From positions 62,001 to 126,000 of the forward strand of contig CALAHF010000165.1 of the NCBI GenBank assembly GCA_937891465.1: a DNA stretch of 64,000 nt, in the 5' to 3' direction. The first letter of the stretch is position 1, and every line of letters starts with the position of its first letter. Source of the DNA: an uncultured Verrucomicrobiales bacterium (lineage in GTDB: Bacteria; Verrucomicrobiota; Verrucomicrobiia; Verrucomicrobiales; DEV007). Positions 6,119 to 61,206 of this stretch are shown here, piece by piece. The position numbers and the translations under genes are program-made. The notes under the pieces were generated by a model, which ran no database searches, was not told the DNA's origin, and worked only from the letters and a program-made list of their open reading frames with translations.

Positions 6119-6829
6119 ATGATGAAAAGTTTTGGAAGTGTGGTTGTCGGGCTGTCCGCTTTAGTTTGTCTTTCGGGGCAAACAGCGAAGGCAGAATTAA
6201 GAGTTCCAAGTTCCGTTTTCACAATGGAAGAGCTTGATGAAGCCAAAGCGAAGGCAGCCAAGGATGAAGAGCCGCTTATTATTGTTTACACTGATCCGGG
6301 CACGACATGAGGCCCTTGTTTGGCCACCAGTTCGGAGGCCTTTAAGTCGTTTCGCTCAGCCGGTGTGGTTGTTTTTGCGAATTCAAAAACAGAATCCAGT
6401 TCATTGCCTGCGGGCGTGAGAGATGTTCGCGCAAAAGGCGGAAGCACAATTCCAATGGTGTTTGTCACCACGGCGGATGGTTCGAAAGGAATCGATGCAG
6501 TGACTTACGCTGCGATGAAGGAAGACATGCGTGATGCGGTGAAAGCGCTCAGGAAAACACTGGAAAAAGCGGATGTTCTTGGGGGTGGTGCTGAAGCTGA
6601 GGATACTGAAACTGAAGAAACCGCAGCTGCAGAATCAACCGAAAACAAGCTTTTCGCCGAGTCTCAGCAGTGGACCAATTCAGATGGAAAGCCAATTACC
6701 GCAGCGATCAAAGCAGTCGAGGGTGGTCAGGTGAAATTCATCATGGCTGATGGGCGTGCTTTGGATTACGCGCTCGAAAAGCTGTCTGCCGAAAGCCAGA
6801 AGAAGATTTCCGAGATTCAGGCGAACTAA
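6119..6829 (+). CDS. Secreted thioredoxin-fold protein with SHD1 tail; candidate selenoprotein (in-frame TGA)
   Basis: Read through TGA at 6308-6310, one frame gives 236 residues. A signal peptide ends near residue 25 (GQTAKA-E). A thioredoxin fold follows: IIVYTDPGTT, then TGA as residue 64, then GPC, so the codon stands where the first cysteine of CGPC belongs; the cis-proline strand STIPMVFV appears near residue 115. After an acidic linker, residues about 178-230 form an SHD1-like domain (WTNSDGKPITAAIKAVEGG). A hairpin 11 nt after TGA fits a bacterial SECIS. A TGC or TGT codon mutated to TGA in a pseudogene is the alternative; neither selC nor selB lies in the window. Neighbouring genes use TGA as a normal stop, so general recoding is excluded. 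A terminator follows. Confidence 0.72.
6322..6340 (+). promoter_or_regulatory. Candidate bacterial SECIS hairpin
   Basis: GGCC pairs with GGCC, an A-A mismatch follows, then CC pairs with GG, closing a five-base loop AGTTC that contains GU. The stem begins 11 nt after the in-frame TGA, the spacing expected of SelB-bound hairpins in bacteria. A competing longer pairing (AGGCC at 6310 with GGCCT at 6337) exists. The fit is by eye only. Confidence 0.5.
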
Positions 6830-6857: not shown

Positions 6858-6894
6858 AAAAAGCCACTTCGCTTCAGTGCGGAGTGGCTTTTTT
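6858..6894 (+). terminator. Rho-independent terminator
   Basis: AAAAAGCCACT pairs with AGTGGCTTTTTT across a short, partly paired centre, ending in a T tract. It follows the stop of the thioredoxin-fold gene by 30 bp. Because both flanks are A/T-rich it could also serve the convergent oxidoreductase gene. Confidence 0.85.
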
Positions 6895-59418: not shown

Positions 59419-61206
59419 CTACTCCAGCTGCAGCTTCGCGAGGGATCCATAAAGGCCACCCGCTCTGGCAAGAAGCTCATCGTGGGTGCCTCGCTCCAAA
59501 ATCGCACCGCCTGAGATCACGAGAATCTGATCACAGCGACGAATCGTGCTGAGACGGTGCGCGATGATGATACTCGTGCGGTTTTCCATCAGCTTGTCGA
59601 GCGCGCCCTGAACAAGACGCTCGCTCTCGGCATCAAGACTGCTGGTTGCTTCATCGAGAATCAGAATCGCCGGGTCGGCAAGAATCGCCCGGGCGATAGC
59701 GATCCGCTGACGTTGGCCGCCGGAAAGCTGGGCGCCACGATCTCCCACGAGCGTTTCGTAACCCTCGGTGAGCCCTTCGATAAACTCATGGGCATTGGCC
59801 TGCATGGCCGCCTCGAAGATTTCTTCGTCAGTCGCTTCGGGTTTACCGTATCGGATGTTTTCTTGAATACTGCCTCCAAAGAGAAGCACTTCCTGGGGAA
59901 CCAGCGCAAGATTCCGTCGCAGGTTCGTTAGTGACATCTCACGGATCGGTTTGCCATCGATCAGGATTTCGCCGGACGTCGGATCATAGAAACGGAACAG
60001 CAGCGAGACCGTCGTCGACTTGCCTGAACCACTCGGACCGACCAGCGCAATTCGTTGCCCCGCTTCCGCTTTCAAATCAAAGTCATGCAGCACCACCGTG
60101 TCGGGACGTCCCGCATAGGAAAAATTGACACCTCGCATCTCGATCTCTCCGGCAAAGCGTGTCATGTCTTCTTTGCCTTCATCTTCCGGCTCAATGTCAT
60201 CCTTCAGGATTTCGCGGACGCGTTCCGTTGCGCCGAGCGAACGCTGCAACTGCGCGATCAACTCAGGGAACTGGAGGAACGACGACGCAATCATTCCGGT
60301 GAGTCCGGCGAATTGAGTCAACTCCTCGTTGCCGATATCTCCGTTGTTCAGCATTCGCATTGCAAACCACGTCACCAGGATCAGCGCCACGCTGAACGCG
60401 AAGATGATGAAGGCGATGAACGACGCTCGCGGGATCGCCGCTTTAATCACCGTGGTAAGATACTCACCGAGGTTTTTGTTATAGCGGGAAAGCTCGTAGG
60501 CTTCATTGCGAAAGGCTTTCACGCTGATGATGCTCTGGAGGCTTTCATCGACGACAACCTGCGAGGCTGCCAGATTATCCTGAGCGCGACGCGTCAACTT
60601 CCGGATGCGCGACCCGAAGACCGCGATGAGAACGATCACCACTGGAATCGTGGCGATCATAAAGAGCGACAGTTTCACCGACATCTGCAAGATCAGCACC
60701 AGACAAAGCAGCAGCATGACCGAGTGCCGGATCAGCATCGGGATCGTGCTGACCAGCGTTTCCCGCATCGCCTCGACATCATTGGCCAGGCGGGAACCTA
60801 ATTCCCCGACGCGTCGCTCGTTCAGCGTTGCCATGGGGAAACGAATGATCCGGCTGAACGTATCCAGGCGGAGCGTTGCGAGTGCCCGTTCCGATGCCTT
60901 TGCGAAAAGAAGAATCCTCCAGAACGCGATGAACGCCTGCACCGAAACAATCGCGACAAGAAACCACGCCTTATCCGTTAATTCGGTCATCCACTCCGCT
61001 CCAGTGGCCCCGCCGATCCCTTTTCCGACCAGACCCGTCAGCTCTTTGATGAAAAGAATCGTCAACCCTCCCGTGAGTGCCAGCGCAAAGAGCGCTGGGA
61101 TGAAGACCTTGTAATGCGGGCGCAAATAAGTCAGGAAAAAGCCGGCGTCTTTCCACGCGGCCCGGTCCCATAGTTTCTTGCTGGTTTGTTCTTTCGTCGA
61201 ATCCAT
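59419..61206 (-). CDS. MsbA-like ABC exporter (fused permease and ATPase)
   Basis: 595 residues. Six helices in residues about 20-320, then the nucleotide-binding domain: Walker A GPSGSGKSTT, Q loop LVPQEVLLFG, signature LSGGQRQRIAIARAI, Walker B ILILDEATSSLDAESE and IIAHRLSTI. Homodimer exporting lipid A, lipids or drugs; the cargo cannot be told. Membrane part has the coupling motif EAYELSRYNKNL. Stops 100 bp from the GH-like gene start, so the two may share a transcript. Confidence 0.93.
   Translation of the reverse strand: MDSTKEQTSKKLWDRAAWKDAGFFLTYLRPHYKVFIPALFALALTGGLTILFIKELTGLVGKGIGGATGAEWMTELTDKAWFLVAIVSVQAFIAFWRILLFAKASERALATLRLDTFSRIIRFPMATLNERRVGELGSRLANDVEAMRETLVSTIPMLIRHSVMLLLCLVLILQMSVKLSLFMIATIPVVIVLIAVFGSRIRKLTRRAQDNLAASQVVVDESLQSIISVKAFRNEAYELSRYNKNLGEYLTTVIKAAIPRASFIAFIIFAFSVALILVTWFAMRMLNNGDIGNEELTQFAGLTGMIASSFLQFPELIAQLQRSLGATERVREILKDDIEPEDEGKEDMTRFAGEIEMRGVNFSYAGRPDTVVLHDFDLKAEAGQRIALVGPSGSGKSTTVSLLFRFYDPTSGEILIDGKPIREMSLTNLRRNLALVPQEVLLFGGSIQENIRYGKPEATDEEIFEAAMQANAHEFIEGLTEGYETLVGDRGAQLSGGQRQRIAIARAILADPAILILDEATSSLDAESERLVQGALDKLMENRTSIIIAHRLSTIRRCDQILVISGGAILERGTHDELLARAGGLYGSLAKLQLE

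Follow-up and report, generated by a model that had tools for sequence, protein, structure and literature searches.

A probable selenocysteine-containing, apparently exported thioredoxin-fold family with an SHD1 tail in Verrucomicrobiota

In the window (the whole stretch of 64,000 nucleotides analysed here), a gene for an apparently exported thioredoxin-fold protein contains an in-frame TGA at which selenocysteine (Sec) is very probably inserted. Computation shows the selenocysteine machinery in the genome, conservation of the site as Sec or Cys among relatives, covariation of the SECIS hairpin, purifying selection both before and after the TGA, and the fold. The original prediction had placed this TGA in frame on the first Cys position of a CGPC-type motif, within a frame otherwise intact for 236 residues, and both coordinates and motif are correct: the TGA is the lone stop between the ATG at 6119 and the TAA at 6827-6829. 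When it is read as U, the product includes, in this order, MMKSFGSVVVGLSALVCLSGQTAKA followed by ELRVP, then VYTDPGTT-U-GPC (with U as residue 64), TIPMVFV, and the SHD1 domain that precedes the TAA. Its N-terminus looks like a signal peptide, as do those of the relatives, which share its hydrophobic core and an ending of the AxA type (Table 1).

Table 1. Features of the gene and its product, in window coordinates.
Feature	Position	Strand	Details	Basis
Probable selenoprotein gene	6119..6829	+	236 codons and TAA; one in-frame TGA (= Sec64)	Homologues; dN/dS
TGA codon for probable Sec64	6308..6310	+	First position of UGPC	Codon read in homologues
Cys67	6317..6319	+	Second position of UGPC; varies among family members	Family alignment
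Predicted signal peptide	6119..6193	+	Residues 1-25; likely cleavage between AKA and E	Sequence; inferred
Thioredoxin-fold domain	6206..6574	+	Residues 30-152	AlphaFold2 model, Z to thioredoxins
Pro112	6452..6454	+	cis-Pro of the thioredoxin fold; invariant	Alignment and model
SHD1 (SLA1 homology 1) domain	6656..6826	+	Residues 180-236	Structure match and profile match to 2hbp
SECIS hairpin	6322..6340	+	6 pairs out of 7; AGUUC as apical loop (6329-6333); 18 nt from TGA to loop	Fold and covariation
Terminator-like hairpin	6858..6894	+	AAAAAGCCACT...AGTGGCTTTTTT; would close a single-gene unit	Sequence; inferred

A first search, in 57 relatives, gave many homologues that contain exactly one internal TGA, and in an in-frame alignment this TGA coincides with the position of residue 64. 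Among the 52 aligned relatives (the loci in the tree), the codon at this exact site is TGA in 30, TGC or TGT in 19, and another codon in 3. TGA in so many relatives, with Cys in almost all the rest, is more than chance would give. The loci with TGA belong to several families of the order and to one further family of the class. A tree of the 52 loci built without the codon-64 column, in which many forks are weak, needs about four switches between Sec and Cys. A profile of 13 family-A members (A1), which was run against 384 genomes from the class and 388 from the phylum, has Sec64, P97, and P112 (the cis-Pro) as invariant columns. In one further paralogue, on contig C116 of genome G019, the residue at this site is neither Sec nor Cys. 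The part upstream of the TGA is also conserved among relatives, and over the 84-86 codons that follow it, dN is about 0.19-0.41 against four relatives, with dS high to saturated; purifying selection thus acts on both sides of the TGA.

The genome of the window is a draft of 229 contigs, 95.6% complete, and it contains selA, selB, selC, and selD, all above curated cut-offs. SelA scores 496 bits, SelB 283 bits (cut-off 242), and SelD 278 bits, the last being fused to an N-terminal NADH-dehydrogenase-like domain (L070 1393-3639, minus strand). The tRNA-Sec gene scores 51 bits against a Rfam gathering threshold of 47; it lies right at the beginning of contig C113, where its 3′ end is lost at the contig end, and its anticodon loop (..CUUCAAA..) has the UCA anticodon. 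ARAGORN, run on this genome, missed the 3′-cut gene, which Rfam recovered. The original prediction had listed the absence of selB or selC, random substitutions at the site, and stops downstream as grounds for abandoning it; selB and selC are present, and neither such substitutions nor such stops are found among the homologues. All the computational checks that it had suggested gave results in its favour.

Machinery and codon co-occur in the tallied genomes of family A: selA is present in 19 of the 20 genomes with TGA, the remaining one (G039, a draft) having selB, and in none of the 16 genomes with Cys, in a set where the relatives are not phylogenetically independent and many Cys rows come from one genus. 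G039, considered as an exception for having TGA and no selA, is thus resolved. In a companion family (B, see following), genome G050 has selA yet Cys at the site, as expected if Cys is tolerated there.

Directly after the TGA, the original prediction had described a 6-bp hairpin with GU in its loop, as in bacterial SECIS elements. This hairpin (GGCC-A-CC-AGUUC-GG-A-GGCC) begins 11 nt 3′ of the TGA, has one A-A mismatch besides its six pairs, and folds alone at -8.2 kcal/mol. The published bacterial SECIS model has an apical loop of 3-9 nt on a stem of 4-16 bp, a G at loop position 1 or 2 (commonly with G or U after it), a distance of 16-37 nt from UGA to loop, and an MFE of at most -7.5 kcal/mol (PMC13188914, Fig. 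2A). The window hairpin agrees with it in all four respects, with a loop of 5 nt, G then U from loop position 2, a distance of 18 nt, and the folding energy just given. In a single-sequence fold of the region 6308-6350, the MFE belongs to a competing structure and is not significant on its own (z of -0.78 against shuffles). Because single-sequence folding is not decisive, the case for a SECIS rests on comparative tests.

The hairpin stands at the same offset from the TGA in most members of family A, and one codon later in seven members that have an extra codon. Covariation was counted on 27 sequences, leaving out the first copy at L076 and one duplicate, and removing the extra codon in six rows. 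Standard pairs make up 87.8% of the total, six of the seven pairs show double-sided changes, and the closing pair and loop (C-nGUnn-G) are invariant. Double-changed cells number 38, whereas shuffles give 11.6 and registers slid by 1-3 no more than 9. Stem pairing in TGA members (L076 included) averages 6.0 of 7, compared with 4.8 in synonymous recodings, whereas in Cys relatives it is 4.2 in both; likewise, the folding energy directly after the TGA is below that of synonymous recodings in TGA members but not in Cys members. The first copy at L076, a selenogene locus, does not form the standard hairpin. A covariance model (R2) of 19 sequences, built without the three copies of this genome and without those of the genus-mate G001 and of L048, G020, and G416, but retaining the other same-family genomes G005, G014, and G019, finds 6308-6343 in the window at E = 2.2e-6, the next best match having E = 1. 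The comparative evidence is decisive: the hairpin is a SECIS, conserved and with covarying pairs, as predicted. Over the whole genome, another model (R1) returns the three loci already known, each of which was part of its training set, and weak matches in apparently noncoding frames, with no further selenoproteins. A SECIS model of family A can be used to find more selenoproteins in Verrucomicrobiota.

These data leave very little room for a TGA without Sec. If a Cys gene had recently acquired a nonsense mutation, or had been misread in sequencing, one step (TGC or TGT to TGA) would suffice, and a stop at 59419 may interrupt another gene of the window, such nonsense-broken neighbours having been the caveat of the original prediction. 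The caveat fails, and the explanation is extremely improbable: TGA is conserved at the same codon in the 30 aligned loci, across the families of order and class mentioned above, always alongside the Sec machinery in the tallied genomes, and with purifying selection persisting downstream. It is the joint conservation of the TGA and of the SECIS 3′ to it that refutes this reading. Alternatively, the TGA could terminate translation, leaving the downstream part (169 aa, from a TTG at 6320) as a separate gene. An ORF at 6320-6829 does exist mechanically, but the residues on the two sides of the TGA form one thioredoxin fold, the Cys relatives have one continuous ORF across the site, and conservation extends to the codons before the TGA, so that this possibility is next to negligible. 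A genome-wide reassignment or readthrough of TGA as another residue, such as Trp, found no support and is hardly credible, given that TGA serves as terminal stop in the same family and genome (the paralogue L051 on contig C54 contains one TGA internally and another as its stop), that Cys, not Trp, is what stands at the site in place of Sec, and that tRNA-Sec and SECIS are present. Since selection continues downstream and TGA genuinely ends translation elsewhere in this genome, the gene is neither decayed nor read with a changed code.

The AlphaFold2 model of the product, made with a 13-row alignment, has a mean pLDDT of 84.7, with values of about 94-98 over most of the thioredoxin domain, and a small β domain at the C-terminus. 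The former matches thioredoxins with Z up to 10.1 and shows the β-α arrangement, the active site at a helix N-terminus, and the cis-Pro strand of the fold, with P112 invariant. The latter matches the SHD1 of yeast Sla1 (2hbp) over 57 residues (Z 9.1, rmsd 1.8 Å) and by profile (E = 0.006), so the cis-Pro strand and SHD1 tail of the original prediction both stand. Sla1 is a eukaryotic endocytic adaptor. Pfam does not detect SHD1 in the product taken alone, and its SHD1 profile (PF03983) matches 2 of the 13 family-A members, weakly. SHD1-like tails are also found on other proteins of the same genome (contigs C211, C110, C40, and C54) and of relatives; hence, SHD1 is a common module in these genomes.

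At the sequence level the product resembles little that is catalogued. No NCBIfam model matches it, neither NCBIfam nor Pfam gives a match to canonical thioredoxin (PF00085/TIGR01068), and the single Pfam hit is Thioredoxin_7 (PF13899), below the cut-off at E = 0.13. This weak similarity goes with fold matches to DsbH (2ju5) and TXNDC12 (ERp19; 1sen), which share the thioredoxin fold. The proteins named here have Cys instead of Sec and are not known to carry SHD1. The known UxxC thioredoxin-like selenoproteins (Trx PF00085, the thiol-disulfide isomerase-like cd02966, and SaoT NF040730; PMC13188914, Table 1) share with the window protein the fold, Sec at the first position of CxxC, and a bacterial SECIS just after the UGA. 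The window protein differs from them in lacking an NCBIfam match, in its apparent export, in its SHD1 tail, and in a second Cys that is not conserved. TlpA/ResA and the ResA-like WAxxUGC-motif selenoprotein NF041054 are likewise exported thioredoxin-type proteins or thioredoxin-type selenoproteins, but they give no match to the window protein at E ≤ 1 and differ in motif and length. Family B matches them below cut-off (25.7 bits for NF041054, where the cut-off is 300) and has UGPC where NF041054 has UGC.

Neither the catalogue published in 2026 (119 prokaryotic selenoprotein families; PMC13188914) nor the covered portion of a 2022 list (PMC9312934) has an SHD1-linked entry. Searches of open-access papers found no earlier description of the family, which is uncatalogued in that sense. 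As the original prediction had supposed for a secreted SHD1-linked version, the family and its architecture appear new, the kind (a thioredoxin-fold selenoprotein) being known. An exported SHD1-linked thioredoxin-fold group would thus be added to the 119 catalogued families, and standard annotation is expected to truncate its genes at the TGA or miss them.

Insertion of Sec by SelB at a hairpin is the established bacterial route. Here, SelA and SelD would make Sec-tRNA(Sec) on the tRNA with the UCA anticodon, and SelB, bound to the hairpin that immediately follows the UGA, would deliver Sec at codon 64. The signal peptide would then export the chain, whose thioredoxin domain would fold with an active-site selenol (U64-G-P-C67, with cis-Pro112) and be joined by a flexible linker to SHD1, probably a binding or anchoring module. 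The genome has a DsbD-type protein, which might provide re-reduction. The most likely role of the product, at roughly even odds, is that of a reductase acting outside the cytoplasm on thiols/disulfides or peroxides. A comparison of 15 loci shows no conserved gene neighbourhood, just paralogues and scattered repeats; hence, no partner can be named and the function is not tied to a neighbouring gene.

The chemistry could, somewhat tentatively, be of a one-selenol type (glutaredoxin- or peroxidase-like, with an external thiol) instead of the dithiol thioredoxin or isomerase type, a reading that concerns function and is compatible with Sec at the site. Within the motif only the first position is invariant: the Sec members have UGPC, URPC, UGAC, UGSC, UGPS, UPTC, or UGPA, with C, S, or A at the fourth position, and some Cys members (CPLA, CPKT) lack the second Cys. 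This variability favours one-selenol chemistry for family A as a whole, as judged from the alignment, whereas the window member retains UGPC, so that an intramolecular Se-S bond may still form in it. The Sec/Cys switches constitute a natural set within one phylum, tied to the presence or absence of selA, and let one ask why selenium is kept where the second cysteine is free to change.

Family A has several copies in some genomes. The genome of the window has two more, both UGPS, on contigs C54 (L051) and C212 (L052). L052 (1351-1872, plus strand) has a TAA just after the thioredoxin domain, without SHD1, and would be a decaying or shortened copy. G019 has several, and in one of them (contig C31, L057 1257-1952, plus strand) a second in-frame TGA follows three codons after the first (UGNUGPA, giving the UxxU pair U57-G-N-U60), a possible diselenide site. 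More speculatively still, family A might be an unrecognised, expanding Verrucomicrobiota branch of exported selenoproteins in which the selenol is the sole required catalytic group, held by the SHD1 module; several paralogues per genome and a UxxU pair in one lineage would then point to a selenium-dependent redox system outside the cytoplasm.

Companion family B (WGxxUGPC, SHD1-tailed) has one gene in the genome of the window, ResA/TlpA-like with the motif WGTRUGPC and an SHD1 tail (contig C19, L050 1211-1945, minus strand). Other members are at L055, L033, L036, and elsewhere, with Cys in three relatives. The SECIS-like hairpin of family B (CCAUCUGGUUCAGAUGG) is a distinct one, which lies at a greater distance from the TGA and shows a few compensatory changes.

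In genome G351, two family-A members lie in tandem (contig C51, L106 5693-7171), one of UGPC and one of UPTC type. The selenogene of L049 (around 3280) and L022 (G019 contig C33), records that may come from the same organism, has an apparent frameshift near residue 92, either an assembly error or the mark of a pseudogene. At 59419, on the minus strand of the window, a lone TAG stands between two long open stretches of 598 and 576 codons, which may be one gene interrupted by a nonsense codon.
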